In this document: one piece after another, positions 4,673-34,001 of the stretch
How the letters are laid out: every line of letters starts with the position of its first letter
Position numbering within the stretch: position 1 is the stretch's first letter
DNA from: Chitinophagaceae bacterium
Lineage (GTDB): Bacteria > Bacteroidota > Bacteroidia > Chitinophagales > Chitinophagaceae
Length of the DNA stretch: 64,000 nt
Assembly (NCBI GenBank): GCA_023957755.1
Contig: JAMLGT010000013.1
Span: 1-64,000, forward strand
Reading direction: 5' to 3'
Notes under the pieces: generated by a model
Database searches by the model: none
What the model was told of the DNA's origin: nothing
Seen by the model: the letters and a program-made list of their open reading frames with translations, nothing else
Translations under genes and position numbers: made by a program

Positions 4673-5584
4673 ATGCCTGAAATTCCAGCCATATCCCTTG
4701 TGATATGTACTTATAATCGTTGCAAATATCTGCCTGCTGCTTTAGAAAGCGTGGCATCACAGCAATGTGCACCCGGTCTTTTTGAATTGATAATAGTGGA
4801 CAATGCGAGCACCGATGATACGGCTGTAATTGCGAAGGGCTTTTTAAAGAATCATCCGGAACTGGCTGTGAGATACGTATTTGAGGTCAACAAAGGCCTG
4901 TCTTTTGCCCGAAACAGAGGAAGAACGGAGGCGATGGCTCCTGTAGTGGCTTATATCGATGATGATGTGATTTTATTTGAAGATTATGTGGCACGCCTGA
5001 ATGAATTTTTTATCAATTTTCCTGGGGCGGCAGGAGCAGGCGGACGGGTTATACCTAAATACGAACACGGCAAGCCAAAGTGGATGAACAAATATTTAAA
5101 GGGATTTGTGGGCGAAGTATCACATGGCAATCAGATAAAAAAATTTGACAAAGGGATGAAATACCCCGCAGGGGCGAGTATGATATATACAAAGGAAATA
5201 CTTGAGAGGGCCGGAGGGTTTAATAATGAACTGAAGTTCAGAAGCGATGATAAGTATATATTTTACGCGGTAAGTGCGATTTCGGATGAAATTTATTATT
5301 TACCTGATGTGCAGCTTTATCACTTCATTGATGATGCGAGACTGGAGCTTGATAACTTTAGAAAGCTGTTTCTGAAAACGGGAAATGAAGAGAAACGCCG
5401 GCTGGCATCGGCCGGTAAGAGCCTGCTGCCCAAGGCATTTGAGTTTATGACAAAAACAGGAGCAGCCACCGCGTTGTGTGTGCTTTATACCCTTAAAGGA
5501 CAATTTGGAAAGGGTAAGATGATTTTTCTTTCCCAATGGTTTACATTAATTGGATTTTTCAAAAAAGATGTTTTTGTAAGATAG
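4673..5584 (+). CDS. Family 2 glycosyltransferase
   Basis: The 303-aa protein has a GT-A fold N-terminal domain: SLVICTYNRCKYL (residues ~8-20), ELIIVDNASTDDT (~37-50), NKGLSFARNRGR (~77-88) and the metal-binding YIDDDV (~99-104). GT2 enzymes transfer sugars from nucleotide-sugars to polysaccharide or lipid acceptors. The C-terminal part has a weakly hydrophobic stretch but no clear TM helices. No surface polysaccharide cluster lies around it, so the acceptor is unknown. It starts at ATG 4673 and is divergently arranged with the small membrane protein. Confidence 0.88.
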   Translation: MPEIPAISLVICTYNRCKYLPAALESVASQQCAPGLFELIIVDNASTDDTAVIAKGFLKNHPELAVRYVFEVNKGLSFARNRGRTEAMAPVVAYIDDDVILFEDYVARLNEFFINFPGAAGAGGRVIPKYEHGKPKWMNKYLKGFVGEVSHGNQIKKFDKGMKYPAGASMIYTKEILERAGGFNNELKFRSDDKYIFYAVSAISDEIYYLPDVQLYHFIDDARLELDNFRKLFLKTGNEEKRRLASAGKSLLPKAFEFMTKTGAATALCVLYTLKGQFGKGKMIFLSQWFTLIGFFKKDVFVR

Positions 5585-5630
5585 TTCATATTCTTTTCCG
5601 TTTGCTGGAAAATAATTATTGAATGGAAAT

Positions 5631-5776
5631 TTATTATTGTTGTCCGATTAAGTTGGGTTAAAACCCACTGGCCTTAGGTTTAATATTTATTACGCTACCA
5701 TTTAGGGTAGGGCTATGAAAGCCGTACTCAACAAGGGCTTTAGCCACATTTTGAATAATTTAACCGGACAATGATA
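5631..5776. repeat. MITE-like dispersed repeat, copy 2 (inverted)
   Basis: The reverse complement of this segment matches 1938-2079 along its full length: ATTGTCCGGTTAAAT, AATGTGGCTAAAGCCCTTG, TTTCATAGCCCTACCC and TTTTAACCCAAC. It begins ATTGTCCGATTAAG and ends TTAACCGGACAAT, so its termini are inverted repeats of each other. It fills the space between the glycosyltransferase and lemA and has no coding capacity. Confidence 0.75.
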
Positions 5777-5849
5777 GAAATTTATATTTAATTCATAATT
5801 TCATCTGCGAAACGGCACTTCCTTTCAAACAATAAATTTTTGATTGCTT

Positions 5850-6410
5850 ATGACAGGTATTATGATTTTTTTTGGGCTTGTAGCTCTATTTATCATCTGG
5901 ATGATCGCTATATACAACAGCCTTGTGAGGATGAAGGTGAAAATCGATAACAGTTGGAGTGACATAAAAGTCTTCCTTAAGAAACGATTTGATTTGATAC
6001 CTAATCTGGTAAATACGGTGAAGGGGTATGCAGAGCACGAGAAGAGCACTTTTGAAGCGGTAACGAATGCCAGAACTGCCGCAATGAATGCGGCCCCCAA
6101 TGATGTCCAGGCCCAGACAGCTGCCAATCAGGGCCTTGCAGGCGCATTAGGACGTTTGTTTGCATTAGCTGAAAATTATCCGGAACTAAAGGCCAATACC
6201 AACTTTCTCGATTTGCAGACTGCACTTCAGAATATAGAGGGTGACCTGGGAAATGCGCGGCGTTACTATAATGCTACTGTGCGAGATTTCAACACAGCGA
6301 TCCAGCAATTTCCTGCTGTAATTATCGCTGGTATGCTTGGCTTTACCAAAAGAGAATTTTTTGAACTCGAAAACCCCGACGAAGCAAAAAACGTTGAGGT
6401 GAAGTTTTAA
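5850..6410 (+). CDS. lemA: LemA family protein
   Basis: The 186-aa protein starts at ATG 5850 (MTGIMIFFG); a TTG two codons earlier is unlikely. One N-terminal TM helix (IMIFFGLVALFIIWMIAIYN) is followed by the conserved NSLVRMKVKIDNSWSDI and RFDLIPNLVNTVKGYA motifs and later by RRYYNATVRDFNT and FPAVIIAG. LemA proteins are membrane-anchored helical-bundle proteins of poorly defined role, often next to a DUF2207 or TPM-domain partner, as here. It lies 12 bases upstream of the DUF2207 gene in a likely operon. Confidence 0.93.
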   Translation: MTGIMIFFGLVALFIIWMIAIYNSLVRMKVKIDNSWSDIKVFLKKRFDLIPNLVNTVKGYAEHEKSTFEAVTNARTAAMNAAPNDVQAQTAANQGLAGALGRLFALAENYPELKANTNFLDLQTALQNIEGDLGNARRYYNATVRDFNTAIQQFPAVIIAGMLGFTKREFFELENPDEAKNVEVKF

Positions 6411-6422
6411 ACCAGGTTTAGG

Positions 6423-8147
6423 ATGAAGGGTGTCTTCATTGCAATACTGTTGCTGCTTTCCGGCTGCCTGACGCTCCATGCGCAGGAGGCATTCTATATT
6501 AAAGATTTTGACGTGGATGTGAAGGTGAACAAAGACGCCTCTCTTCAGATAACCGAAAAACTATCACTTTACTTTACACAATCGCGACATGGGATAATCC
6601 GATATATCCCTTTTAGGTACAAAATAAACAAACTGCAGGAGGGTATGGAGCGCGCTGACATGTCGTGGAGTTCTGGCGATTACCGGTATATCCGCATCAC
6701 CGATGTAAATGTGAAAGGGGCTAAATTTAAAACTTCAACCACCGGCGATTTTGAGACTATAAAAATAGGTTCGGAAAACACACTTATCTCAGGCGACCAG
6801 AATTATGAAATATCTTATAAGATTGAAGGTGCAATTAATTTCTTCAGGCAATATTCTGAATTATATTTGAACCTTACAGGCAACAATTGGGCTACCGAAA
6901 TTCAGGAAGTTCATTTTACTATTCATTTTCCTGCACCAGTGCCGGATACAGCCAGGTGGTTCGTGGCTACAGGCAGGCTGGGTTCACAGGAAAATAATAC
7001 TGCCACCAAATGGAGCTCGGATCGAACTACCCTTCAGGGTATGAGCATCGCTCCCCTGAAGAGTTATGAAGGAATCACAGTGGGAGTATCAATGCCATCA
7101 GGATTCCTTACGAAACCTAATTATAGCCGCCGTGAAATTCCGTGGTTACTGCTTCCTCTGATTACTTTCTTTGGGATGCTTGCTGTATGGAAAAGATGGG
7201 GGAAAGATCCTGAGGTGACGATAGTTCCTTCTTATTATCCACCGGAGGAAGTGAATCCACCTTTGGCTGGTTATCTGATTGATGGAAGGATTGACCGTAG
7301 AGACCTTACTGCATTGATTCCCTATTGGGGGGCAAAAGGATACTTAAAGGTGGAGGAGAATGAACGAAAAGTATTACTGGGCCTTCTGAAGAATTTTGAT
7401 TATAAATTTATTAAGTTGAAGAACCTTGATCCTGGTGCAGAGAAGTTTGAACATACTATGTTTGATGGGCTATTCCGATCTGGCAATGAAGTAGATTTAT
7501 CTGATCTCGAGAATACCTTTTACATTACTATGGCGAATACGAAGAATGATCTGGAAAAGGAGATGGATACGCGGAAATATTATGTACAGTACTCCAGAGG
7601 CTTTGCGGTATTGTTTGCTGTATTTGGGGTTATTATTTTGATATTGTCTCTGTTAAAGTTTGTGGGATCATATCCGGTGGGCACTTTTAAATGGGGCGCT
7701 TGCGTTTTGGCCAGTCTGATTGTGATTATTTTCGGATCATTAATGTCTAAGAAGAGTGAGAAGGGTACTGAAGTGTATCAAAAGCTTCTTGGGTTTAAAG
7801 AATTTATAAAGAGTGTGGAACAAGATAAGCTTAACACCTTTCTGAAGGAAGACCCCAATTATTTTGATAAGGTGCTGCCTTATGCCATTGTCTTCAATCT
7901 GGCAGATAAGTGGAAGGACAAACTAAAGGGGCTGGATGTGCCTCCTCCTTCATGGTTTGCATCTTCCTCTACGTCGGGAGCTAATTTTAGTAACCTGATG
8001 TTCCTTAATGGTCTGAATCGATCCATGAATTCAATGAGCCAGACTTTTTACAGCCAGCCTTCTTCGTCTGGCTCTTCAGGCGGCAGTTTTGGAGGGGGTG
8101 GATCTTCAGGTGGTGGATTTGGAGGTGGAGGAGGAAGTAGCTGGTAG
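6423..8147 (+). CDS. DUF2207 domain membrane protein
   Basis: The 574-aa protein has a signal peptide (MKGVFIAILLLLSGCLTLHAQ), an extracytoplasmic DUF2207 domain (FDVDVKVNKDASLQITEKL..., about residues 27-225), and a TM helix (IPWLLLPLITFFGMLAVW) near 240. A cytoplasmic region follows, then a TM pair near 395-440. A C-terminal tail of Gly and Ser repeats ends GGGGGSSW, typical of this family. DUF2207 proteins commonly accompany LemA; their function is not established. The gene follows lemA and precedes the degenerate nuo cluster by 67 bases on the same strand. Confidence 0.88.
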   Translation: MKGVFIAILLLLSGCLTLHAQEAFYIKDFDVDVKVNKDASLQITEKLSLYFTQSRHGIIRYIPFRYKINKLQEGMERADMSWSSGDYRYIRITDVNVKGAKFKTSTTGDFETIKIGSENTLISGDQNYEISYKIEGAINFFRQYSELYLNLTGNNWATEIQEVHFTIHFPAPVPDTARWFVATGRLGSQENNTATKWSSDRTTLQGMSIAPLKSYEGITVGVSMPSGFLTKPNYSRREIPWLLLPLITFFGMLAVWKRWGKDPEVTIVPSYYPPEEVNPPLAGYLIDGRIDRRDLTALIPYWGAKGYLKVEENERKVLLGLLKNFDYKFIKLKNLDPGAEKFEHTMFDGLFRSGNEVDLSDLENTFYITMANTKNDLEKEMDTRKYYVQYSRGFAVLFAVFGVIILILSLLKFVGSYPVGTFKWGACVLASLIVIIFGSLMSKKSEKGTEVYQKLLGFKEFIKSVEQDKLNTFLKEDPNYFDKVLPYAIVFNLADKWKDKLKGLDVPPPSWFASSSTSGANFSNLMFLNGLNRSMNSMSQTFYSQPSSSGSSGGSFGGGGSSGGGFGGGGGSSW

Positions 8148-8214
8148 GTAGGCTTCCGATTGGGAGTGCCTATTTTCCATCTACCCGAATTTCATTTGCC
8201 ACAGTATCTTATTT

Positions 8215-8658
8215 TTGATAAAATTTCATCGATTGCTGCCACTGATTCAAATTCACCCGAACATCAATAATACACCTGATTATTTTCCGGTGATACTTCA
8301 ACTATTGGTTGTTACCACAATAGTGGCAGTACTTGCCGGGTTTGGGCTCTTGAAGAACAGGGGTGAAGTCGGGACTGCCGAAAAGGAGCCGGAACCGACG
8401 AAATCCCCACAACCGATTTCATACAAAATCGCGGATAGCGAAAAGGGGCTTATTGCAGCCGGGGCATTTGTGTCGCTGGGTATAGCATTGGTATTTTTAT
8501 TCTCTTATGCGGTGAACCTGAAAAAGTTGGGATGGCATGGGGTGGTGCCTGTGGCGGTATTTATTTTGATGATGTCATGCGGATATTTTTATGCTATAAA
8601 GAAAATCGGAAGGGACATGAAGGGTGAGCAAAATAATGGATTAAACCATGAGAAATGA
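8215..8658 (+). CDS. Degenerate NuoA-like membrane subunit
   Basis: The protein can be aligned to NuoA (complex I subunit A): the N-terminal helix DYFPVILQLLVV matches the family's YxPxLLQLL helix. The C-terminal half LVFLFSYAVNLKKLGWHG...YFYAIKKIG matches the family's FLYPWAV..LGW..G...YAWKKG. However, the invariant FDxE is replaced (Gly89 and Ala91 stand where Asp and Glu should be), and YPW has become FSY. The start is uncertain: TTG at 8215 is used because no in-frame ATG lies near the N-terminal helix. It overlaps the next gene by four bases (ATGA), showing an operon. Identification rests on residue patterns and gene order. Confidence 0.6.
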   Translation: MIKFHRLLPLIQIHPNINNTPDYFPVILQLLVVTTIVAVLAGFGLLKNRGEVGTAEKEPEPTKSPQPISYKIADSEKGLIAAGAFVSLGIALVFLFSYAVNLKKLGWHGVVPVAVFILMMSCGYFYAIKKIGRDMKGEQNNGLNHEK

Positions 8659-9629
8659 AAGGTAACTATGTTACGATTGATCTGGCATTGGTTATTGAGA
8701 AGTTGGTGCTGATAATAGCCGTAACTTTTCTGGTGTGGGTTGCGGCCCGCATGATTGCAATGGCGGATAGAAAATGGCTACACCCTTCACCCGGAACAGG
8801 TGTTAAAGACATTTCCGAATCATTATTCGGAGCAACACCAAGACTGTTAGTAAAAGCAGCCGCAGTACTCATGCTGGTTGTTTCGATAATGATCAGTACG
8901 GTGATTCCCTGGGGAGAGGCAGTCAGGATAGGCAGTAGAAATGTTTCTTTATTTATAGCAAGGGTTGACATTGGTGTGTTATTAATTCTTGCTTTCCTCT
9001 GGCTGGGGATTTATGGAGGTATTGCGCAGAGGTGGAGTTATGTGAAGAACGATAGGATAGGAGCTCTATTCAGATTCGGGTCACTTTTTATTGCCTGTGC
9101 ACTGGCAATGGGTTTGGCGATTGTCCCCCTGTTAATGCTTGCGGCATCGACCGATTTGCAGAATATTATTTCCTTACAGAAGGATGCAGTGTGGAATATT
9201 TTTTATCAACTACCGGGGTTTCTGATTATGTTGTTAGGAACAGCGGTATTGTCAAAGCCCTCTTTCACAAATGACGGGAGGAGGATTGCAGGAGCAGGAT
9301 TTGGTTCAGTCAATGCCATGTATAATCTTACCGGCTATGTGCTCTTGTTTTTGATGGGTACATTCATTACCGCTTTATATCTGGGAGGGTACGAAATTCC
9401 TTTTGTGAGTGACCTGGCACTGAGGAGGAGGTTTGGAGTAAATGTGTTGTTTATATTGCAGGGGATTTCATTTTCGTTCAAGATTATAATGGTAGTTGCC
9501 ATTTTGCTGTGGACGCGAAGAGTACTGGAAAGATATGACGAATCCATATTGATTCGTTGGGGCTGGAAGCTTATAATCCCCGCTGCCTTAATAAACCTTG
9601 CCGGTACCGCTGTAGTCCTAGTGGCATAA
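8655..9629 (+). CDS. Degenerate NuoH-like membrane subunit
   Basis: A 324-aa polytopic protein with about eight TM segments. It follows the NuoH order: an N-terminal helix ending MADRKW (family ERK), a helix ending VIPWGEAV, the VDIGVLLILAFLWLGIYG helix, and a late FITALYLGGYEIPF (family ..FLGGW..P). The GPNRVGP loop, the SYE motif and the acidic TEYSG loop that form the quinone channel are all missing or replaced. This suggests loss of quinone chemistry. It sits exactly where nuoH would be in a nuo operon after deletion of B-G. The 4-base overlap with the A-like gene supports co-translation. Confidence 0.62.
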   Translation: MKGNYVTIDLALVIEKLVLIIAVTFLVWVAARMIAMADRKWLHPSPGTGVKDISESLFGATPRLLVKAAAVLMLVVSIMISTVIPWGEAVRIGSRNVSLFIARVDIGVLLILAFLWLGIYGGIAQRWSYVKNDRIGALFRFGSLFIACALAMGLAIVPLLMLAASTDLQNIISLQKDAVWNIFYQLPGFLIMLLGTAVLSKPSFTNDGRRIAGAGFGSVNAMYNLTGYVLLFLMGTFITALYLGGYEIPFVSDLALRRRFGVNVLFILQGISFSFKIIMVVAILLWTRRVLERYDESILIRWGWKLIIPAALINLAGTAVVLVA

Positions 9630-9680
9630 AAAAAATTAGTTCCGGAATTAAAAGAAGTTTTCCGGACAAAGTGAGATTTT

Positions 9681-10211
9681 ATGGGTGCAACATTTATACT
9701 TTTCTGGATTCTTTCAACTCTTGCATTTGCAGCGGCAATGGGTATTCTTGTCAGCAAGAAAGAGTTGTACAGTGTGCTGAGTTTTATTGTACTTGTTTTT
9801 GCAATCTCCGGTCATTTTATTTTAATGAATGCACAGTTTTTGGCAATCGTAAACATATTAGTGGTGGCAGGTGCGCTGGGGGTGATGTTCCTTTATGGAT
9901 TGATATTGGTACGTTCTCATCGCGATAGTGAACAGGTGAAGATTTTGTATATGAGGATTGCCGGGGTGATTGCTTCGCTCCTCTTACTGATTGTGCTTAC
10001 TGCTGCAGTGTCAAAGGCATCCCAAAATGAGGTGGTGCTGAGGCCGGGCACGTGGATTGGACATGTGGACAAGATTGGCGAAGAATTGTTTTCACGTTTT
10101 TTTGTTCCTTTTGTAATCAGTGGACTTTTGCTGCTGAGTGTACTTGTGGGGACAGTGGTTATAATTATTAACAGGGAGCCGGCTCCCGATCCTAAATCCG
10201 TTACGTTATGA
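9681..10211 (+). CDS. nuoJ: NADH-quinone oxidoreductase subunit J (NuoJ)
   Basis: The 176-aa protein has five predicted TM helices and the family core NAQFLAIVNILVVAGALGVMFLYGLILV at about residues 50-77 (family AEFLAxxQxLVYxGAIxVLFLFVIML). The family's Tyr in VYxGAI is Val here, and the Gln is Asn. NuoJ is part of the E-channel linking the quinone site to antiporter subunits. The gene follows the NuoH-like gene by 51 bases, where nuoI would be expected, and overlaps the next gene by four bases (ATGA). Confidence 0.82.
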   Translation: MGATFILFWILSTLAFAAAMGILVSKKELYSVLSFIVLVFAISGHFILMNAQFLAIVNILVVAGALGVMFLYGLILVRSHRDSEQVKILYMRIAGVIASLLLLIVLTAAVSKASQNEVVLRPGTWIGHVDKIGEELFSRFFVPFVISGLLLLSVLVGTVVIIINREPAPDPKSVTL

Positions 10212-10735
10212 AGAGAGTATTATTTATCCTCGCGCTGAGTTTTTTCTCAGTCAGAGCAGTACATGCCCAGATTAATCTGGATGATTTACGACTTAAAGAT
10301 CTTATTGGTCAGGTGATGAAAGTTGAAAAAGGTTTTGCTCCTAAATTTTCGCTAGGAAACCTGCCTATTAAGGAGGTTTCCAAGGTGGCAGAAATCCTGG
10401 GAATGAAAAAGAATGTGGATGTGGACAAATTGTTCAGGACCTTTCGTACAGGTAGAATTGTGTATAAAGTGGCCGCATATACGGGAAGTGCCATTGTGGT
10501 GTATGGACTTGCAAAGAAGATGGATAATTCTATTAAATCCGGTGATTACGAAACAGCATTGTATTCGGGCTTAGGAACAATCGTTTCGGGTCTGGCAGTT
10601 AAATTGCTGACGAAAGGTGCTTCCTATAAGGCCGTGGATATCTTCAATGGTATTGCTGTAAACAAGATTTTGGATATTTTCTCAATCGGGCCTGCCTCAG
10701 ATATGCCGGGGATAGGGATTTATGTCAAACTCTGA
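10208..10735 (+). CDS. Secreted or anchored hypothetical protein inserted between nuoJ and nuoK
   Basis: A 175-aa protein with a clear signal peptide (MKRVLFILALSFFSVRAVHAQ). The mature part is basic and moderately hydrophobic, with a stretch AAYTGSAIVVYGLA near residue 95 and a glycine-rich end PGIGIYVKL. No family is recognised. It overlaps the nuoJ stop by four bases and ends two bases before nuoK, so it is an integrated member of the operon, not a chance insertion. Its periplasmic address suggests a partner of the membrane subunits. Confidence 0.75.
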   Translation: MKRVLFILALSFFSVRAVHAQINLDDLRLKDLIGQVMKVEKGFAPKFSLGNLPIKEVSKVAEILGMKKNVDVDKLFRTFRTGRIVYKVAAYTGSAIVVYGLAKKMDNSIKSGDYETALYSGLGTIVSGLAVKLLTKGASYKAVDIFNGIAVNKILDIFSIGPASDMPGIGIYVKL

Positions 10736-10737
10736 TT

Positions 10738-11067
10738 ATGCTGACACACTTTTATGTAGTATTGGCATTTTTGTTATTCTCCATTGGAGTGATGGGCGTA
10801 TTAACAAGGCGTAATGCGCTGGTTTTACTTCTTTGCATTGAGTTGATGATGAGTGCCGGCATTTTGCTTCTGGTGGTTTTTTCAAAAATGCACCTCACTC
10901 ACGCTAATTCGTTCTCAGGTGCCCAGGCCTCACAGGGACAGATATTTGCGCTGTTTGCGATCATGGCAGCAGCAGTGATTGGGATAACCGGAATTGCAGT
11001 GATTTTTGCTTTCTTTAGAAAAACCCGATCGGTTGACATCAATTTCTTAAACCGGCTGAAAAATTAA
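10738..11067 (+). CDS. nuoK: NADH-quinone oxidoreductase subunit K (NuoK)
   Basis: The 109-aa protein has three TM helices and strong NuoK motifs: FSIGVMGVLTRRNALVLLL, CIELMMSAG and GQIFALFAIMAAAV, ending FRKTRSVDINFLNRLK. The first conserved membrane glutamate is kept (Glu35 in IELMM). The second (TVAAAEAAIG in the family) is Ile81 here. Both glutamates are required for proton transfer in studied complex I enzymes, so this copy is probably altered in function. Confidence 0.85.
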   Translation: MLTHFYVVLAFLLFSIGVMGVLTRRNALVLLLCIELMMSAGILLLVVFSKMHLTHANSFSGAQASQGQIFALFAIMAAAVIGITGIAVIFAFFRKTRSVDINFLNRLKN

Positions 11068-11094
11068 TTATCAGTATAGTGTAACCTACTGTAT

Positions 11095-11343
11095 ATGGAT
11101 AAGAAACAAAGTGAAACTTTAATGGGGAGGCTAATCATATTGCCATTGCAGAAGATATCCGCAGTACTTGAAAATATCGTGGATAATAAAATCCTTGATG
11201 GATTTGTGAATGGAATCGGAAAAGGGATGGAATATGCGGGCCGGCAGGTCCGTTATCTGCAGAGTGGGCAGCTATCCTCTTACTTTCTTATTATGGTACT
11301 CTGCCTGATTATCTTTCTGGTCGTACAGATTGGGCTGATGTAG
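11095..11343 (+). CDS. Stand-alone C-terminal fragment of NuoL
   Basis: The 82-aa protein matches only the last ~80 residues of NuoL: LPLQKISAVLENIVDN (family RPLxxLSxxLxxxVD), KILDGFVNGIGKG (family xIDGLVNGVA), RYLQSGQLSSYFLIM (family RxLQTGxxxxYAxxM), then one TM helix. The antiporter domain and most of the lateral helix are absent. It has an ATG start, and it lies at the nuoL position between nuoK and nuoM. The clean reading frame suggests it is retained as a gene rather than being debris. Confidence 0.65.
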   Translation: MDKKQSETLMGRLIILPLQKISAVLENIVDNKILDGFVNGIGKGMEYAGRQVRYLQSGQLSSYFLIMVLCLIIFLVVQIGLM

Positions 11344-11483
11344 ATTTCTTATTACCTAAATGAATTTCCAATGGCCATAAGACTATATTTCCAACCAGGC
11401 ATCACAGCAATGATTTTCATAGTTTTGTGGCGGCCAGATGCTAAACCGTTGGGTATCATCCATAAAAACTTTGAGAGTTAGAT

Positions 11484-12980
11484 ATGCTGGGCAATTATGT
11501 CACCTTTCCTGAACTGCTGCTTTGGATTCCATTTGTCATGGGGCTTATCGTGCTTCTGCTTAAGAGTGCAAAGGCAGTAAAGGTTGTGTCCCTGATTTCG
11601 GTTTGGCTGACTCTTGGCGTTGCGGTGGTGAGCCTTGTGTATGCATTGCCTGCAAAGGAAGCTGATTACTGGAATTATAATAACGTCAGTTACTACTGGT
11701 TGCGATATATAGGTTCCAGTTTCACCCTGGGGCTTGATGGGATTAGTCATGTATTTACATTGCTGACGTCTTTGGTTTTTGCTTTAGTATTTATGGTGAC
11801 TTCAGGAAGCAGTTATGAGAAACCAAATGCATTTTATGCCATGTTGTTGTTCTGGCAGTCTGCCATCACGGGTGTCTTTGTGGCTTTTGATGTGTTGGTG
11901 TTCTATTTCTTTTGGATTATAGTGTTGGTGTTGACTTTCTTTCTGATGGGGAGGTGGGGCGATTCCTGGAAGACCGGGTTTGCATTTAAATTCTTTATCT
12001 ATCAATTCACGGGCGCATTGTTGTTTCTTGCAGCAGTACTGATCTTGTATCCTTATACTGTACCTGTGCAAGCGGATTCAGCACACAGTTTTACAATATC
12101 CGCGTTTTTTATTTCTCCTTTTTTGGCAGGTGTGCAGGTGCGGGCTTTCCTGCTGATGGCAATTCCATTTTTTGTCATGATTCCGATATTTCCATTTCAT
12201 ACATGGTTTCCGGGCTCCTCCGCAAGGTCGCCTTATCCTGTAGCGATGATCCTGGGAAGTGTGATGGTGATCATGGGATTATATGGAATGATAAGACTCG
12301 CCATTCCCCTTTTTTCCATAGCCTTTGAGAAATTTCAGGATGTGATTTTCATTTTATGTGTAGTAAGTATTGTGTATAGCGGATTCATTGCACTCATTCA
12401 GGACGACCTGAAACGACTGGTGGCCTGGGCTTCGGTTACTCATGTCGGAATAGCTACACTGGGGGTATGCTCAGGAAATGCAGTAGCACTGGCAGCGGGT
12501 ATGTTTGAGACTATAAATCATGGAATTATCATAGCAGGCTTATGGATGGTAATGTTTATTATTGAAGCGCTGACAGGGAAAAGAAGTATTTCATCACTTG
12601 GCGGAATAGCAAAAAAGTCACCGGGACTGGCTGTCTTCTTTTTCTTTGTGCTATTTGCGGTTGTCGGGCTTCCTCTGACGGGCTCGTTTTATGCAAAGTG
12701 GCATATTCTGGAAGGGTTAGCCGGTGTAAGTACGGTGGCGCTCGTAGGACTGATACTTGGATATCTTCTGACTTTGCTACTTATGATTAATATTGCACGT
12801 AAGGTGTTTTTTGGAACTGTGAGTGAGGCCGTTGCAATGGCGGGCAGTATGTCGGTAATGCAGGTAATTGCATTGGTTTTGGTGATACTGGCTATTTTGA
12901 TTTTGGGTATTTATCCTGATGCGGTGACGGATTTATTTAAAGCTTCAGTGGATAATATTATTAAGAGAACAGGAGGGTAG
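11484..12980 (+). CDS. nuoM: NADH-quinone oxidoreductase subunit M (NuoM), proton-channel residues lost
   Basis: The 498-aa protein has about 14 TM helices and clear NuoM landmarks: VFYFFWIIVL (140-149), IPIFPFHTWFP (233-243), KRLVAWASVTHVGIATLG (310-327), NHGIIIAGLW (345-354) and GLPLTGSFYAKW (395-406). Key charged residues are replaced: the TM5 glutamate is Ile145, the TM7 lysine is Met232, the TM8 lysine is Ile263, and the TM12 glutamate is Lys405. It is therefore a NuoM homologue that probably cannot translocate protons in the usual way. A TAGTTTTG at 11420-11427 could be a -7 element for an internal promoter. Confidence 0.85.
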   Translation: MLGNYVTFPELLLWIPFVMGLIVLLLKSAKAVKVVSLISVWLTLGVAVVSLVYALPAKEADYWNYNNVSYYWLRYIGSSFTLGLDGISHVFTLLTSLVFALVFMVTSGSSYEKPNAFYAMLLFWQSAITGVFVAFDVLVFYFFWIIVLVLTFFLMGRWGDSWKTGFAFKFFIYQFTGALLFLAAVLILYPYTVPVQADSAHSFTISAFFISPFLAGVQVRAFLLMAIPFFVMIPIFPFHTWFPGSSARSPYPVAMILGSVMVIMGLYGMIRLAIPLFSIAFEKFQDVIFILCVVSIVYSGFIALIQDDLKRLVAWASVTHVGIATLGVCSGNAVALAAGMFETINHGIIIAGLWMVMFIIEALTGKRSISSLGGIAKKSPGLAVFFFFVLFAVVGLPLTGSFYAKWHILEGLAGVSTVALVGLILGYLLTLLLMINIARKVFFGTVSEAVAMAGSMSVMQVIALVLVILAILILGIYPDAVTDLFKASVDNIIKRTGG

Positions 12981-13011
12981 GATAATCAGATTACGTTTTT
13001 ATTGATAATTT

Positions 13012-14400
13012 ATGAATGCAATAATAATTAGTGGCGTGTGGGGAGTGGCAATGATGCTGGGAGGTGTCTTGTTCAGGAGAAGCCACACGACAGTTTTTAT
13101 TGCTATAGCGGGGATGATATTATTGCTTGCAGGAAATTTAATGGAGTTTTTTTCCACTCCGTTATTTTCGTTTGATGGATTTGAGATGTTGAAGGTGAGT
13201 TCCTTCGGTTTGCATTTCAACACGATTGCTTTTTTCGGAACGCTTTTAATATTCTTACTCAATGGAAAGGATATAGAAACCCTGGGGAATCATTCGGCTG
13301 AATATTTCAGCCTGATATTTTTCTCTTTATGTGGGGTATCTGTGGCCACCTCTTATAATACATTGCTCACCTTGTTCCTGGGAATAGAGTTGATGGTAGT
13401 GCCACTTTATTTTCTGGTAGGAAGTGATAACAGGAACCTGAAGGGAATTGAAGCCTCGTTGAAGATGTTCCTGACCGGTGCCTTCTTCTCGGCTATTATA
13501 TTGATGGGGATAGCCCTTATATATGGTGGTAACTCCCTGGGCTCCATGTATATCACATTTATCTCCCTGGGCAAGGTGGATGTCAATCCGATGATAATGA
13601 CTGGGATGGTATTATTGCTGGCAGGGATGGCCTTTAAGGTGTCCGCTGCGCCATTTCATTTTTGGGCGCCGGATGTGTATGACGGCACACCAACTGTCGT
13701 CTCCTCATTTTTGTCAGCGGTTGTTCAGGTAGGAGCGTTCATAGCTTTTTACAAGTTGTTCAGTACCACCTTCGGACAAATAAAACCTCAGTGGCAGACA
13801 CTATTGGTTACAGTGGCTGTATTATCAATGGTCATAGGAAATGTTACTGCTATATTTCAACAGAGTATCAAGCGAATGCTTGCCTATGCGGTCATTGCGC
13901 AATCAGGTTTTTTACTTCTTGGCCTGATTTCTTTTTCAGATGTGGGGCGCGAGGGGGTAGTACTTTTCATTGGATCCTATGCATTAGGTATGATTGGTAT
14001 GTTTGCAGTAATAAGCAGACTGCCCGACTATACAATTGATGGTTTTAGCGGATTGGGCAAACTGAATCCGGGTGTAGCGCTGTTTACTTCCATATTCTTA
14101 TTGTCGCTCACAGGAATACCATTGACGGCAGGCTTTTTGGGAAAGTTGTATCTGCTTTTAGGTCTGGCGGCAGGGCAGGGGTGGGGCTGGCTCATTATAA
14201 TCGCTTCAATCAGTATGGCGGTCAGCGCTGTTTATTATTTTAGGATTATCAGGGCAATGTATTTCAGAGAGCCGGTTCACCCCGTAGAAGGAGTACCTGA
14301 AATGCGGGTTTCGTTCAGATGGTTATTGGGGATCATTGCTGCAATTCTGATTTTACTCGGTCTGGTGCCCGACATACTCACAAGCTGGATATATTATTAA
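13012..14400 (+). CDS. nuoN: NADH-quinone oxidoreductase subunit N (NuoN)
   Basis: The 462-aa protein is the least degenerate antiporter-like subunit of the cluster. It keeps Glu126 (GIELMVVPLYFLVG), Lys209 (AFKVSAAPFHFWAPDVYDG), the SIKRMLAYAVIAQSGF motif and Lys378 (GFLGKLYLL). The TM8 lysine of the family appears to be Gln239 (SAVVQVGAF). It follows nuoM by 31 bases and is the last nuo gene. A MacB-type permease follows 87 bases later. Confidence 0.88.
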   Translation: MNAIIISGVWGVAMMLGGVLFRRSHTTVFIAIAGMILLLAGNLMEFFSTPLFSFDGFEMLKVSSFGLHFNTIAFFGTLLIFLLNGKDIETLGNHSAEYFSLIFFSLCGVSVATSYNTLLTLFLGIELMVVPLYFLVGSDNRNLKGIEASLKMFLTGAFFSAIILMGIALIYGGNSLGSMYITFISLGKVDVNPMIMTGMVLLLAGMAFKVSAAPFHFWAPDVYDGTPTVVSSFLSAVVQVGAFIAFYKLFSTTFGQIKPQWQTLLVTVAVLSMVIGNVTAIFQQSIKRMLAYAVIAQSGFLLLGLISFSDVGREGVVLFIGSYALGMIGMFAVISRLPDYTIDGFSGLGKLNPGVALFTSIFLLSLTGIPLTAGFLGKLYLLLGLAAGQGWGWLIIIASISMAVSAVYYFRIIRAMYFREPVHPVEGVPEMRVSFRWLLGIIAAILILLGLVPDILTSWIYY

Positions 14401-14486
14401 TTTTTTCACAAGAAGTAAATTTGAGAATGCACGGATGTTATTACCTTCACCCGCAGACAATCATACGATAAAAGAGTAAATAGCAG

Positions 14487-15755
14487 ATGCGGTTATCTGA
14501 TTCATTATCACTTGCCTTCAATACTACCAAAAGCAATAAGTTACGTACAGGGATCACTGTTGCAATAATTGCGTTTGGTATTATGGCTTTGATTGGTATT
14601 GTTACTGCTATAGCAGCAATGAACCAGAGCCTTAACGAAAGTTTTTCGCTGATGGGAGCCAACTCTTTTACAATTATGTATCGGGATATCAATATCTCGA
14701 TGGGCGGCGGTAACCGCAACAGAACAAAGAAGGAAAGCCTGAAAAGAAAAAAGAGTAATGAGGCTAAGATATTTACTTATGAAGAAGCGAAGGCTTTCAA
14801 AGAGCGTTACAAATTTCCGGCAAGGGTCAGCATCTCACTCAACTACCGGAATGTGATTGTCGGTCATGGAAGTATCCAGTCCAATCCGAATGTAACGCTG
14901 ATTGGTATTGATGAAAATTATTTATTACTCAGTGGTTATACACTTTCCGCAGGAAGGAACCTCACCCCGATAGATGTGCAAAGTGGTAATAGTATCTGTA
15001 TCATTGGAAATAGTGTAGCAAAGAAATTGTTTCCTGCGCATCCGGAGCAGGCATTGGATCAAAACATTAAGGTGTCCGGTATCAAATACCGGGTAGTAGG
15101 GATATTGAAAGATAAGGGGAGCAGTTCGTTTATGAATGCAGATAATGTGGTGTTCACCAGTTACAATAACCTTCGCCGGCTTTTTCCGGTAGGCTCCAGG
15201 TCGTTTAATATAGGGGTTTATGTCAATGATATTAACCAGATGCCGGCTGCCATATCAGAAGCGAAGGGGACACTTCGCCCGATACGGAAACTCAGGGTCG
15301 ATGAAGAGAACAACTTTTATTTTTTACAAAGCGACAGTATTGCTGAAGCCTTTATCAATAGTCTGGGTTCGGTAGCTGCCGCCGCAGGGCTTATCGGGCT
15401 AATTACTTTATTCAGTGCTGCAATCGGACTAATGAATATCATGCTGGTATCCGTAAATGAGCGGACGAGAGAGATAGGGCTGGTGAAGGCAATCGGAGGA
15501 AAAGCAAGCAGTATTAAGGCTCAATTTCTTTTTGAATCGGTCATTATCAGTCTGATGGGAGCTGTCTTTGGAATCATTCTGGGTATTCTGGTAGGGAATA
15601 TTTTCGGTATTTTTCTTGGGACTACTTTTGTGATCCCCTGGGGTTGGGTGATTGCAGGTGTGGTTACCTGTACTGTTGTGGGATTAGGAGCAGGAATTTA
15701 CCCTGCTGTTAAAGCATCCAAACTTGACCCTATTGTGGCCTTGCGCTACGAATAA
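14487..15755 (+). CDS. ABC transporter permease, MacB/FtsX type
   Basis: The 422-aa protein has an N-terminal TM helix (RTGITVAIIAFGIMALIGIV), a large extracytoplasmic MacB_PCD domain, and three C-terminal TM helices with the FtsX signature (LMNIMLVSVNERTREIGLVK and KAIGGKASSIKAQFLFES, about residues 316-353). It ends with DPIVALRYE, the family's usual terminus. Such permeases act as mechanotransmitters with a separate ATPase, which is not present here. The preceding cluster is on the same strand. Confidence 0.9.
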   Translation: MRLSDSLSLAFNTTKSNKLRTGITVAIIAFGIMALIGIVTAIAAMNQSLNESFSLMGANSFTIMYRDINISMGGGNRNRTKKESLKRKKSNEAKIFTYEEAKAFKERYKFPARVSISLNYRNVIVGHGSIQSNPNVTLIGIDENYLLLSGYTLSAGRNLTPIDVQSGNSICIIGNSVAKKLFPAHPEQALDQNIKVSGIKYRVVGILKDKGSSSFMNADNVVFTSYNNLRRLFPVGSRSFNIGVYVNDINQMPAAISEAKGTLRPIRKLRVDEENNFYFLQSDSIAEAFINSLGSVAAAAGLIGLITLFSAAIGLMNIMLVSVNERTREIGLVKAIGGKASSIKAQFLFESVIISLMGAVFGIILGILVGNIFGIFLGTTFVIPWGWVIAGVVTCTVVGLGAGIYPAVKASKLDPIVALRYE

Positions 15756-16096: not shown

Positions 16097-16960
16097 ATGG
16101 CAGATTTAAAATCTACTGCGAGTTCTTCACCGAGAGCAACTACATCAGTGAAGGCGAAAAAATCGAGCAATATTATTTCTCTTCTTGCTCCGATTCTGTG
16201 TGTCGTTGTCGGTTACGTATTTTGGCGATTTGTAATTGGAAATCCTGACAATTTCAACCTTCCTGATAATTCAGGTGGTTTCTGGCCCAATCATAAAGAC
16301 CCGAAAGGTGACTTTGCAAGGATGTATGATGGTGGAATCATCGTGCCGATTCTTATCGGGTGTTTGTTGATCGTAACTACATTCGTTATTGAAAGAGCAC
16401 TTACCATTTCTAAGGCTACCGGAAAAGGATCCAATGCTGCCTTTGTAAGAAAAGTGCAGTTTTTCCTGGCTGATAAGAAAGTGGATGCTGCCATTGCTGA
16501 ATGCGACAAACAAAAAGGTTCTGTAGGTAATGTAATGAAAGCCGGCCTGAGGAAATATCAGGAAATGATTTCAAACACAGAATTAACTACTGACCAGAAA
16601 GTGATGGCTATCCAGAAAGAAGTAGAAGAAGCAACTGCGCTGGAACTGCCGATGCTAGAGAAAAATCTGGTATTCCTTTCAACCCTTGCATCAGTATCTA
16701 CATTGATTGGTCTGCTGGGTACGGTTATCGGGATGATTCGTGCATTTGGTAACCTGGGTGAATCTGGTGGTGGTGAAGCTGCCCGTGAATTGTCAAAAGG
16801 TATTGCAGAGGCACTGTATAACACCGCACTGGGTATCGGATCTTCCGCGTTCGCAATCATTACTTACAACATCTTTACTACTAAGATCGATGGCATTACA
16901 CACGGAATTGATGAGTCCGGATTTTCATTAACACAAAGTTTTGCATCTCTGTATAAATAA
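16097..16960 (+). CDS. exbB: MotA/TolQ/ExbB proton channel protein
   Basis: The 287-aa protein has an N-terminal TM helix (ISLLAPILCVVVGYVFW), a second (IIVPILIGCLLIVTTFVIER), and the family core VFLSTLASVSTLIGLLGTVIGMIRAF followed by the last TM helix with ALYNTALGIGSSAFAIITYN. ExbB forms the pentameric channel of the TonB energising complex in the inner membrane. It heads the operon with two exbD genes and tonB. Confidence 0.93.
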   Translation: MADLKSTASSSPRATTSVKAKKSSNIISLLAPILCVVVGYVFWRFVIGNPDNFNLPDNSGGFWPNHKDPKGDFARMYDGGIIVPILIGCLLIVTTFVIERALTISKATGKGSNAAFVRKVQFFLADKKVDAAIAECDKQKGSVGNVMKAGLRKYQEMISNTELTTDQKVMAIQKEVEEATALELPMLEKNLVFLSTLASVSTLIGLLGTVIGMIRAFGNLGESGGGEAARELSKGIAEALYNTALGIGSSAFAIITYNIFTTKIDGITHGIDESGFSLTQSFASLYK

Positions 16961-17012
16961 TTCTGTGGAATTTGAATAAGAAATGCATCTAAATAATTAA
17001 AAGGAAAAAATT

Positions 17013-17696
17013 ATGGCCAGACCAAAGATAAAAAGAGGGAGTACCGCAGTGGATATGACGGCTATGTGCGACGTAGCATTCCTGCTGCTTACTTTCTTTA
17101 TTCTGGCTGCTCAGTTTAAACCTTCAGAAGCTATTACGGTTGTCACGCCCGCTTCAGTATCGACCAAACACGCACCTCAAAAGGATTATTTTACAGTTAC
17201 CATTGATAAAGAAAACAAGGTATATGTAGATATGGATCCCAACCTGAGGCAGCAAGTAATCGAGAAGATGGCAGAATTGACCAAAACAGAGTTCTCTCCG
17301 GCCGATGTACAGGCTTTTGTAGCAGTTGATTTTGTGGGTGTACCCTTTAATCAGCTAAAGCAATTTGATCAGCTTCGTCCCGAAGAAAGAGCTAAGGTTA
17401 CCTTGCCGGGAATCCCCGTGGATAGTGCCAATAATGAGCTATACACCTGGATTAGAGCTTTGAAGGAAGCAGCACAGGGTTCCAGGGTGAATTTCCTGAT
17501 AAAAGGAGATAATGATACCAAATACCCTGCTTTTGAAAAAGTAATCAACGCCTTTAAGAAAAATGATGAATTTAAGTTTAACCTGATGACTGATGCACGT
17601 GAAGTGCCACCGGGAACTGACTTATACAAGAAGAACTTGGAGCGGATTATGAATAAAGAAAAAGGCGGAGCAGCAGCAGACGATCCAAACAGTTAA
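17013..17696 (+). CDS. exbD: ExbD/TolR biopolymer transport protein (first copy)
   Basis: The 227-aa protein begins with a cytoplasmic basic stretch, then the TM helix AVDMTAMCDVAFLLLTFFILAA with the conserved proton-carrying Asp (MCDVAF, residue ~20). The rest is periplasmic. The extended periplasmic region is longer than in proteobacterial ExbD (~140 aa), a usual feature in Bacteroidota. It follows exbB by 52 bases. Confidence 0.92.
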   Translation: MARPKIKRGSTAVDMTAMCDVAFLLLTFFILAAQFKPSEAITVVTPASVSTKHAPQKDYFTVTIDKENKVYVDMDPNLRQQVIEKMAELTKTEFSPADVQAFVAVDFVGVPFNQLKQFDQLRPEERAKVTLPGIPVDSANNELYTWIRALKEAAQGSRVNFLIKGDNDTKYPAFEKVINAFKKNDEFKFNLMTDAREVPPGTDLYKKNLERIMNKEKGGAAADDPNS

Positions 17697-17723
17697 TTTT
17701 AAAACCAAAAAAACCAGATTACT

Positions 17724-18254
17724 ATGGCAGAAATGGAAGTGAAGGACTCCGGTGGTAAAAAAGGCCCCGGCGTCAAGAAAAGTAAGAAGGCCTCTACAAG
17801 AGTGGACCTGACTCCAATGGTGGATCTTGGGTTCCTGCTGATTACTTTCTTCATCTTTACTACGACGATGTCTCAGCCTACTTCTATGAACCTGAATATG
17901 CCGAAGGATACTGAAAAGCCAAGCGATGATACGAAGGTGAAAGAATCGGGATCTCTTACAATAATGTTGGGAAAAGCAGATGTGGTTTATTACTATTATG
18001 GTAATGAACTTATGAATCTGAAGACTACCAACTATAAAGATATCAGAGACATTATTATGGAGAAAAAAAGAAATACTCCGGCTGAGGATTTATATATTAT
18101 CATTAAGCCTGACAAGGATGCCTCATACAAAAATGTGGTGGACTTATTGGATGAGATGAATATTTGTGATATTTCACGATATGCAATGCTCAATCCGACA
18201 GACGATGAATATATGTTGATCCAAAAGACAGAGCAGGCATCAGGGATTAAATAG
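17724..18254 (+). CDS. exbD: ExbD/TolR biopolymer transport protein (second copy)
   Basis: The 176-aa protein has a Lys-rich N-terminus, then TRVDLTPMVDLGFLLITFFIFTT, the family TM helix with the conserved Asp (PMVDLGF), then a periplasmic domain. Bacteroidota ExbB-ExbD-ExbD-TonB operons typically carry two ExbD paralogues that may form heteromers. It lies 27 bases after the first exbD and 46 before tonB. Confidence 0.92.
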   Translation: MAEMEVKDSGGKKGPGVKKSKKASTRVDLTPMVDLGFLLITFFIFTTTMSQPTSMNLNMPKDTEKPSDDTKVKESGSLTIMLGKADVVYYYYGNELMNLKTTNYKDIRDIIMEKKRNTPAEDLYIIIKPDKDASYKNVVDLLDEMNICDISRYAMLNPTDDEYMLIQKTEQASGIK

Positions 18255-18300
18255 TAGTTAGCCCCATTTATTAAACTTATATTTTTTAATACTAAAAGAA

Positions 18301-19128
18301 ATGATGGATCCAAAAGATATATTAAAGTCTGACTTCCTCGACATACTGTTTGACGGAAGGAATAAGGCTTATGGAGCCTATCAGCTGAGGCGCACCTATA
18401 ACCGACGGCTTACCATAGCATTGTCCGGAATGGCTTTGCTGGCTTTGTTGGTTATTGGAGGTAACTTACTGGCCTCCAAACTAAAGCCCAAGGAAGTTGC
18501 AATGGAGATGATCACCAATGAGACAACCTTGCAAAACCTTAAAGCTGATGAGCCACCACCACCACCACCACCGCCACCACCGGCATTGCCGCCGCCGCCA
18601 CAGGTGCAGACAATCCAGTTTACACCACCAAAAATTGTAAAGGATGAGGAAGTGGTTCAGCCACCACCGGAAGTAAAGCAGATTGAGGAAGCTAAGATTG
18701 ATATCAAAACTCAGGAAGGTACAAAAGACCTCGGTATCATTGCTCCTCCCGCTGAAGAAGTAGGTACTCAGGTTGTCGCTGCTCCGGTTGAGAAGAAAGA
18801 AGACGAAGACAGAATCTTCACGAAGGTGGAGAAAGATGCCCAGTTCCCCGGAGGTCTGAATGCATGGAATGCATACGTGAAGAAAGCTATTGAAAGAGAA
18901 ATTGACGAGTTTACCGACTCTGATTTCGGAACCTGTATTGTGAAGTTTGTTGTGGACAAACAAGGAAATGTGAGTGATGTACAAGCTACTACAATGAAAG
19001 GAACGAAGCTCGCTGAAATAGCCGTAAACGCGATCCGTAAAGGACCAAAGTGGATTCCTGCTCAGCAGAACGGCCGTATGGTAAATGCTTACAGATACCA
19101 GCCGGTAACACTACTGAATCCTAATTAG
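18301..19128 (+). CDS. tonB: TonB energy transducer
   Basis: The 275-aa protein carries the Bacteroidota TonB N-terminus FDGRNKAYGAYQLRRTYNRR, one TM helix (IALSGMALLALLVIGGNLLA), a periplasmic run of ten prolines plus a PPPP linker (residues ~83-105), and a C-terminal TonB domain. In that domain, FPGGLNAWNAYVKK, GTCIVKFVVDKQGNVSDV and KGPKWIPAQQNGRMVNAYRY are typical. It couples ExbBD to outer membrane receptors such as the one at 45.2 kb. A terminator follows. Confidence 0.94.
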   Translation: MMDPKDILKSDFLDILFDGRNKAYGAYQLRRTYNRRLTIALSGMALLALLVIGGNLLASKLKPKEVAMEMITNETTLQNLKADEPPPPPPPPPPALPPPPQVQTIQFTPPKIVKDEEVVQPPPEVKQIEEAKIDIKTQEGTKDLGIIAPPAEEVGTQVVAAPVEKKEDEDRIFTKVEKDAQFPGGLNAWNAYVKKAIEREIDEFTDSDFGTCIVKFVVDKQGNVSDVQATTMKGTKLAEIAVNAIRKGPKWIPAQQNGRMVNAYRYQPVTLLNPN

Positions 19129-33560: not shown

Positions 33561-34001
33561 TTAGTGTTTAATTTCTTTGCCCAACCAAACACCATATTTC
33601 TTCCACTGTTCGTAGAAAATTATCCATTCACAGATCCATGGGATCATTTTAAAAAGTGGAATAGTTAGATTAGAAGGGTTATCTATAATCGGATGGTATA
33701 GACATAAGGAAAGGTCTCTATATAAATGAATTTCTCTATTGTATTTGATCGCTTTGTCGTCGATATATATTCTATCATACCGATAGTCATGGAATGGAGA
33801 ATATGAAAGAAGAACTTTATACTTTTTGTTATCAACAACCAACTTACCCTTGCCTATTAAAGACTTCGAATGACTATTTAGATAAAGGTTTAGCCAGTCG
33901 AAATGTTTTTCTACGAGTAATTTTTGAACAAATAGAAAAGTAAACCAATCTCTCTGATGTAACGTCTTAATATTTCTCTCCAAAATTGTGGTGATTCTCA
34001 T
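33561..34001 (-). CDS. E2-like conjugating protein of short type II CBASS
   Basis: The 146-aa protein matches the E2-like family of type II CBASS. The central YKVLLSYSPF strand is followed by HLYRDLSLCLYHP, where Cys100 stands at the expected catalytic position. The C-terminal motif IPWICEWIIFYEQWKKYGVW is the family's most recognisable part. In published type II systems an E2 (alone, or fused with E1) links the C-terminus of the CD-NTase to other proteins and primes it. No E1 or JAB gene is present, which is the short form. It overlaps the CD-NTase by 35 bases. Confidence 0.8.
   Translation of the reverse strand: MRITTILERNIKTLHQRDWFTFLFVQKLLVEKHFDWLNLYLNSHSKSLIGKGKLVVDNKKYKVLLSYSPFHDYRYDRIYIDDKAIKYNREIHLYRDLSLCLYHPIIDNPSNLTIPLFKMIPWICEWIIFYEQWKKYGVWLGKEIKH

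Follow-up and report, generated by a model that had tools for sequence, protein, structure and literature searches.

A complex I operon reduced to its membrane-arm genes in a Chitinophagaceae bacterium

We analyzed a stretch of 64,000 nucleotides from a Chitinophagaceae bacterium (assembly GCA_023957755.1, contig JAMLGT010000013.1, positions 1 to 64,000), hereafter the window, which lies on contig 5 of the genome denoted G000. Positions 8215-14400 hold a plus-strand block of eight genes, each with an open frame, that resembles an operon of respiratory complex I (NDH-1) stripped of its peripheral arm; the genes are referred to as A, H, J, X, K, L tail, M and N, after the Nuo subunits. The NuoA-like protein (8215..8658; 147 amino acids) keeps 3 transmembrane (TM) helices and has its D79 and E81 (E. 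coli numbering) replaced. The NuoH-like protein (8655..9629; 324 amino acids) keeps 8 TM helices and has lost the TM1-2 and TM5-6 quinone-chamber loops together with the Glu of TM4, and the NuoJ-like protein (9681..10211; 176 amino acids) keeps 5 TM helices. Protein X (10208..10735; 175 amino acids), with a signal peptide predicted by eye, belongs to a family that sits between nuoJ and nuoK. The NuoK-like protein (10738..11067; 109 amino acids) keeps the first conserved Glu and carries Ile in place of the second. A C-terminal remnant of NuoL (11095..11343; 82 amino acids) consists of the final part of that subunit, with one TM helix, and has a counterpart of 83 amino acids in genome G004. The NuoM-like protein (11484..12980; 498 amino acids) carries the replacements E144 to I, K234 to M, K265 to I and E407 to K, and the NuoN-like protein (13012..14400; 462 amino acids) keeps E133, K217 and K395 and has Gln in place of K247, in a numbering set by motif. 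The genes are tightly packed, with 4-bp overlaps of A with H and of J with X, and a gap of 2 bp between X and K.

Profile searches assigned these proteins, including the A-, H- and L-like ones, to complex I subunits, as an earlier note on this DNA had proposed: A matched Oxidored_q4 (7.8e-8), H NADHdh (2.2e-21), J Oxidored_q3 (2.4e-25), K Oxidored_q2 (1.8e-19), M TIGR01972 (2.6e-97) and N TIGR01770 (1.3e-93). Within the NuoL model of 630 positions (NCBIfam), the open reading frame (ORF) of 82 amino acids aligns solely to 559-628 (4.9e-8). For X there was no Pfam match, and the best NCBIfam match was at 0.13. None of the peripheral-arm genes B, C, D, E, F, G and I lies within the block, and a tblastn search for their remnants, with queries from up to four intact sisters, gave no credible candidate, only short weak matches, the best of which (E 0.052) lies outside the block. 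The description of the locus as a nuo operon lacking these seven genes and most of L, with all remaining membrane-arm genes open, thus holds, with the correction that the block comprises eight genes, X included.

The same reduced layout is found in four genomes of one clade (G000, G004, G006 and G014), which represent three divergent lineages, G006 being nearly identical to G000. G004 has the order A-H-J-X-K-Ltail-M-N, with a tail ORF of 83 amino acids, whereas G014 has A-H-J-X-K-L-M-N with an L of 638 amino acids. An assembly artefact is unlikely, given that the layout recurs on a single contig of 72,771 bases in G004, on a single contig of 107,303 bases in G014 and on two contigs in G006. 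A 116-residue ORF between H and J in G014 had no Pfam match and no NuoI match in tblastn. We interpret G014 as an intermediate stage, which indicates that the trimming took place in steps rather than by a single cut.

Related regions (20, 8 and 9) were annotated by comparison with the proteins of the block and of the complete enzyme described below. Intact relatives in the genus have the order A-B-C-D-E-F-G-H-I-J-(X)-K-L-M-N, so that the native Chitinophagaceae operon shares with the block the genes A, H, J, K, M and N, their order, and the position of X between J and K. It also shares the downstream neighbors. In the window, the block is followed by MacB, ExbB, ExbD and ExbD. Twelve intact operons of the genus lie on contigs that extend beyond N; MacB and ExbB come next in nine of them (G001, G003, G010, G011, G012, G013, G016, G017 and G019) and not in the other three (G005, G007 and G018). 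The upstream side differs, with LemA and DUF2207 genes in the trimmed lineages; the one intact relative scanned (L044) has genes for a TPR protein and a PBP-like protein there. Because the order is the same after subtraction of B-G, I and most of L, and because the downstream neighbors are shared, the block can be recognized as the native operon after deletion. In the trees of MacB and N, G000, G004 and G014 form one clade (support 100/99 and 96/92, respectively) nested among intact genus members; in the X tree the trimmed clade is weakly supported (60/97). Intact nuoBCDI genes are linked to the same genes in the same operon of sister genomes, a finding that the earlier note had regarded as fatal to its proposal. 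These sister operons refute an old membrane-only family, and do not refute a later change of role.

Among 394 family genomes searched for N and NuoD, only these four were found to combine a native-type N with a single NuoD that is fused to NuoC (linkage of N and D was checked for part of the genomes with both native N and D or with more than one NuoD). Five other genomes with a single fused CD (G033, G190, G309, G348 and G353) have either no N match or one at about 1e-51, as would be expected of the other isozyme. A NuoD match is absent from 12 of the 394 genomes, 8 of which have an N match (G223, G224, G241, G262, G267, G358, G411 and G456). Loci were inspected in six of these eight, all except G262 and G267. 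G241 has K-L-M-N, with NuoH on another contig, and the contigs of G223, G224, G358 and G411, of 3.7-5.1 kb, are uninformative. In G456, a family member of 1.8 Mb and 99% completeness whose genome has no NADHdh or 49 kDa match, contig 8 (L079, 11940-17587) carries J-K-L-M-N followed by MacB-ExbB; A-I are absent there, and the genes immediately upstream are those for PBP and TPR proteins. M and N of G456 retain the key motifs, and this locus is possibly the result of an independent loss of the peripheral arm.

The earlier note had also suggested that a complete complex I might be encoded elsewhere in the genome, and this proved correct. Contig 1 of G000 carries a complete operon A-B-CD-E-F-G-H-I-J-K-L-M-N with fused CD. 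Genome-wide profile searches covered PF00346, PF00146 and PF00361. The only match to 49 kDa/NuoD (PF00346) is the fused NuoCD of this operon, PF00146 found one further NuoH, from the same operon, and PF00361 (Proton_antipo_M) matched five genes, of which those beyond the block are L, M and N of the complete operon. Alongside its one complete complex I, the cell thus encodes a set with the membrane arm only. The subunits of the two are only ~18-40% identical in local alignments, which identifies the complete copy as a distant isozyme and not as the parent of the block; the view that the block is a paralogue duplicated from the resident enzyme has to be abandoned, the block being the native operon. 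The fused CD protein, at 80-100% identity, was found in all four trimmed genomes and in none of the 16 other genus genomes, 15 of which have only relatives at no more than 41% identity, and one of which (G019) has none. Completeness is 92% or higher for seven of these 16 genomes and 59-87% for the other nine, where absence is less firm. It should be noted that the trimmed genomes are a single clade, and the co-occurrence of fused CD and trimming therefore counts as one event rather than as 20 independent observations. Moreover, elsewhere in the family fused-CD enzymes occur beside an unfused NuoD (e.g., in G025), so that possession of fused CD alone is not the cause of trimming. In three of the other genus genomes (G001:C18, G003:C183 and G010:C140), an additional D protein resembling that of complex I shares 38-41% identity with fused CD. 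Taken together, these comparisons give good support to an origin of the block by deletion from the native operon, within a single clade whose members also encode the fused-CD enzyme.

We then consider what the block has lost. Thirteen positions of the catalytic axis were compared: D79 and E81 of A, E157 of H, E36 and E72 of K, E144, K234, K265 and E407 of M, and E133, K217, K247 and K395 of N. Residues of A and M were mapped onto E. coli chains and those of K and H onto Thermus chains; for K, H, N and L, the E. coli residue names are the customary ones or were set by motif. The number of changed positions was 9 of 13 in G000, 10 of 13 in G004 and 6 of 13 in G014 (counting the replacement of K217 of N by Arg in G014). 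M has all four key residues replaced in G000 and G004 and three of four in G014, K has lost its second Glu in G000 and G004, and three of the four key residues of N are retained whichever lineage is considered, the central Lys being absent from G000 and G004. In the full-length L of G014, judged by motif, the conserved Glu of TM5 is replaced by Ala and the distal Lys by Ile. None of the three lineages retains either cytoplasmic quinone-chamber loop of H. Along the E-channel path, D79 of A is lost in all three lineages, E157 of H in two and E36 of K in one. One study (PMC13324432) names E157H-D79A-E36K as a proton path and reports that the D79N replacement left production and assembly of the E. 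coli complex unaffected. The combined residue losses in the block probably abolish pumping.

Measured against respiratory complex I, the block lacks the quinone module (NuoB, C, D and I; the only NuoD of the genome is in the other operon) and the NADH module (NuoE, F and G), its L is reduced to the last 82 amino acids, and it departs from the enzyme in the quinone loops, the E-channel and the axis of conserved Glu and Lys residues. By these comparisons, the block descends from complex I and fails the tests for a working complex I.

The losses are also unevenly distributed between the two sides of the membrane. Topology was derived from hydropathy, the balance of K+R and an assumed N-out orientation. 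In H, cytoplasmic loops keep 20, 29 and 17 of 107 sites that are invariant in intact relatives (G000, G004 and G014, respectively; the same order is used below), versus 18, 20 and 21 of 33 on the periplasmic side. The corresponding numbers are 7, 6 and 9 of 27 versus 11, 13 and 11 of 16 for A, and 3, 4 and 5 of 10 versus 15, 12 and 14 of 18 for J. The bias is reversed in K (cytoplasmic 16, 16 and 17 of 18; periplasmic 9, 11 and 13 of 15), and M and N have no clear side bias in the invariant loop sites kept. For H, A, J and K pooled, Fisher p values are 9.9e-8, 4e-7 and 3.7e-10, the three genomes not being independent. The loss in H, A and J is concentrated where, on the predicted topology, the peripheral arm docked, and the periplasmic side is better kept.

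Several features of the block have been retained. The numbers of TM helices estimated from hydropathy in J and K are equal to those of two intact relatives, and that of A to one; H, M and N are within one helix. None of the eight genes has a broken frame in any of the three divergent lineages, and the two lineages without the rest of L have an uninterrupted L tail. In simulations of neutral drift with 0.1 substitutions per site, a mean of 17 stop codons accumulated over the eight genes, and none of 200 runs remained free of stops. Codon models for the G000-G004 pair rejected a nonsynonymous to synonymous rate ratio (omega) of 1 for all eight genes (likelihood ratio 23-324); values of omega are not given, synonymous divergence (dS) being saturated. 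In the much closer G000-G006 pair, A, H, J, K, L tail, M and N together have 5 synonymous and 3 nonsynonymous changes at 1294 and 4121 sites, respectively (ratio 0.19, binomial p 0.023); X, split over two contigs in G006, was left out of these counts. Selection holds the frames open, or did so until very recently.

Rates of divergence differ greatly between the genes. Between G000 and G004, identity is 39% for A, 37% for H, 61% for J, 75% for X, 67% for K, 56% for M, 64% for N and 51% for the L tail, compared to 85% for MacB, 92% for ExbB, 90% for LemA and 83-100% for the complete enzyme. Expressed relative to the distance of MacB (14487..15755, plus strand), which served as the yardstick, the distances over three trimmed pairs are 3.1-6.2 for H, 2.9-5.8 for A, 2.3-3.6 for M, 2.0-3.1 for J, 1.7-2.5 for K, 1.7-2.8 for N and 1.0-1.7 for X. 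For nine intact pairs, they are 0.6-1.0 (H), 1.1-2.0 (M), 0.8-1.9 (J), 0.4-0.9 (K) and 0.8-1.4 (N), with 0.8-1.5 for A in three pairs and 1.7-2.3 for X in two pairs; two mixed trimmed-intact pairs were left out of these ranges. X is the only member of the block with no visible fall in constraint, as judged from few pairs.

Among 24 X loci obtained in a genome scan, K follows X in all 24 and J precedes it in 21, the remaining three being at contig ends. NuoI is upstream in 19 of the 24; three of the others are trimmed genomes and two cannot be judged from the locus. X is rare in the family (8 of 394 genomes, 4 of them trimmed) and occurs in 10 of the 20 genus genomes, including the 4 trimmed ones. 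A protein of this kind, without a family name, lies between nuoJ and nuoK in Ferruginibacter-like genomes. AlphaFold2 gave an unreliable fold, with a mean predicted local distance difference test score (pLDDT) of 48.5 from 9 sequences and of 44.7 from 22 sequences; the first model had no match in the PDB at E<=0.001 in Foldseek, and the best match of an X profile to PDB sequences, at E 0.08, was disregarded. From its genomic position and predicted signal peptide, X is likely to be a periplasmic accessory protein of complex I.

We propose, with a probability of about 0.5, that the block encodes a redox-free, pump-impaired membrane assembly that is kept for a non-energetic role related to X. Under this scenario, the fused-CD complex I would have taken over NADH oxidation; the peripheral-arm genes B-G and I of the native operon were deleted, and L was then cut to its last helix. 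The seven membrane proteins might still assemble, with the L remnant serving as a strut and X joining as a subunit on the periplasmic side, close to J and K. The role itself might be that of a scaffold or tether at the periplasmic face of the membrane, already held by the parent complex. Several observations weigh against this proposal. Constraint on the block is strongly relaxed: nonsynonymous divergence (dN) between G000 and G004 is 2.6-25 times that of the complete-enzyme counterparts for A, H, J, K, M and N (0.71 versus 0.028 for H), the flanks LemA, DUF2207 and MacB have 6 synonymous and 1 nonsynonymous changes between G000 and G006 (ratio 0.05), so that the block is less constrained than they are, and tips of the N tree are 0.52-0.68 long in trimmed genomes versus 0.01-0.16 in intact genus members, which fits continuing erosion. 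A selective erasure of charge was not supported overall: invariant sites of A, H, J, K, M and N were kept at 61/114 charged versus 436/776 other positions in G000 (p 0.61), 57/114 versus 461/776 in G004 (p 0.067) and 64/114 versus 511/776 in G014 (p 0.047), i.e., the loss of charged residues is unselective in G000 and G004 and barely selective in G014. The side bias of H, A and J may reflect only the lost docking partner, and a general periplasmic working face is unsupported by M and N and opposed by K. E. coli with the conserved Glu of NuoM changed to Lys, a replacement present in G000 and G014, is reported to assemble the complex and to pump at lower stoichiometry (PMC9271201), so that single losses need not abolish pumping. 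Finally, E. coli with truncated NuoL makes a fragile complex (PMC3274701).

The most serious competing explanation, which we regard as a real if less probable one, is that the native complex became redundant because of the fused-CD enzyme and is being lost step by step under weak residual selection, e.g., to avoid misfolded membrane protein or to keep X or downstream genes expressed. The stepwise loss (full-length L in G014, then the L tail alone), the long trimmed tips, the 9, 10 and 6 changed catalytic-axis positions, the excess of dN over that of the complete enzyme and the weaker constraint compared to the flanks are all expected of such a relic. The intact frames of eight genes in three divergent lineages, the rejection of omega=1 for each gene, the conserved numbers of TM helices, the absence of acceleration in X and the open L tail in both lineages without the rest of L weigh against it. 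The conclusion of the earlier note that the trimming is not random decay is upheld by the open frames, omega<1 and the TM counts, whereas the strongly relaxed constraint may still be decay, and neofunctionalization is one reading of the data only. It is unlikely that the block is an Mrp-like cation/proton transporter or a regulated leak, run by N with J and K. Mrp-type Na+/H+ antiporters are multi-subunit membrane complexes that are related to the membrane subunits of complex I and have no redox module; their subunits are homologous to those of the block, and N retains three of four key positions per lineage. Changing E133 of NuoN is reported to have been without functional effect, unlike E144 in L and M (PMC3046159). 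However, M has none of its four key residues in G000 and G004, where the central Lys of N and the second Glu of K are lost as well, the channel part of L is gone, no protein of the MrpE, F or G type was found among the eight scanned, and descent is from the local nuo operon. Least probable is a scenario in which the block would rely on a peripheral arm taken from the resident fused-CD enzyme, or on some other soluble redox module. The same cell does encode one complete peripheral arm; however, no parts are more heavily lost than the quinone loops of H and, in H, A and J, the docking face on the cytoplasmic side, the resident subunits are distant, and no soluble redox gene was recognized in the block or its scanned neighbors.

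Other natural derivatives of complex I are known. An 11-subunit complex I-like enzyme without the NADH module, essential under some growth conditions, has been described (PMC11238625). It is likewise a natural complex I missing a module, but it misses the NADH-oxidizing module only, whereas the block is without the whole peripheral arm, B, C, D and I included. Rhodobacter sphaeroides has two complex I isozymes, the second horizontally acquired, and each has its own function (PMC4859585); the bacterium studied here likewise has a second isozyme beside the native one. A group 4 membrane-bound hydrogenase does not fit either, as the block has no large or small redox subunit and the only PF00346 match of the genome is NuoCD. 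Our literature searches, with subscription papers largely outside their coverage, returned no membrane-arm-only nuo block among the matches listed, and no passage on incomplete operons was found in PMC8235220. Complex I without the NADH module and two isozymes in one cell are thus known already. A pumping machine may here have been turned into something else. The block amounts to a natural experiment, complex I minus its redox arm with the membrane subunits open and the predicted helices kept, and its sequences can show which contacts persist after selection for redox coupling and pumping has ceased. If the product assembles, a non-energetic role of the membrane arm becomes testable. The genomes further offer a dismantling series for a large enzyme (intact, trimmed with full L, trimmed with the L tail) and highlight X, an uncharacterized protein of some Chitinophagaceae that is probably an accessory to complex I.

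The surroundings of the block in the window should be mentioned briefly. A Bacteroidota promoter pattern had no match in positions 5500-14600. Upstream lie LemA (5844..6410, plus strand), the upstream neighbor in the trimmed lineages G000, G004 and G014, and a DUF2207 membrane protein (6423..8147, plus strand), which ends 67 bp before A and is perhaps co-transcribed with it. The downstream neighbor, MacB, is an FtsX-like permease. Beyond the block and MacB, positions 16097-19128 hold an ExbB-ExbD-ExbD-TonB cluster; ExbB and ExbD are neighbors in many intact relatives as well. A CTnDOT-like conjugative element at 19320-44536 encodes a serine recombinase, DUF4138 (TraN type), TraM, TraJ, a TraG ATPase, a MobA-type relaxase and a coupling protein. 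Within this element, a SMODS/DncV-like nucleotidyltransferase gene (33967-35142, minus strand) is a candidate for a CBASS-type defense function.

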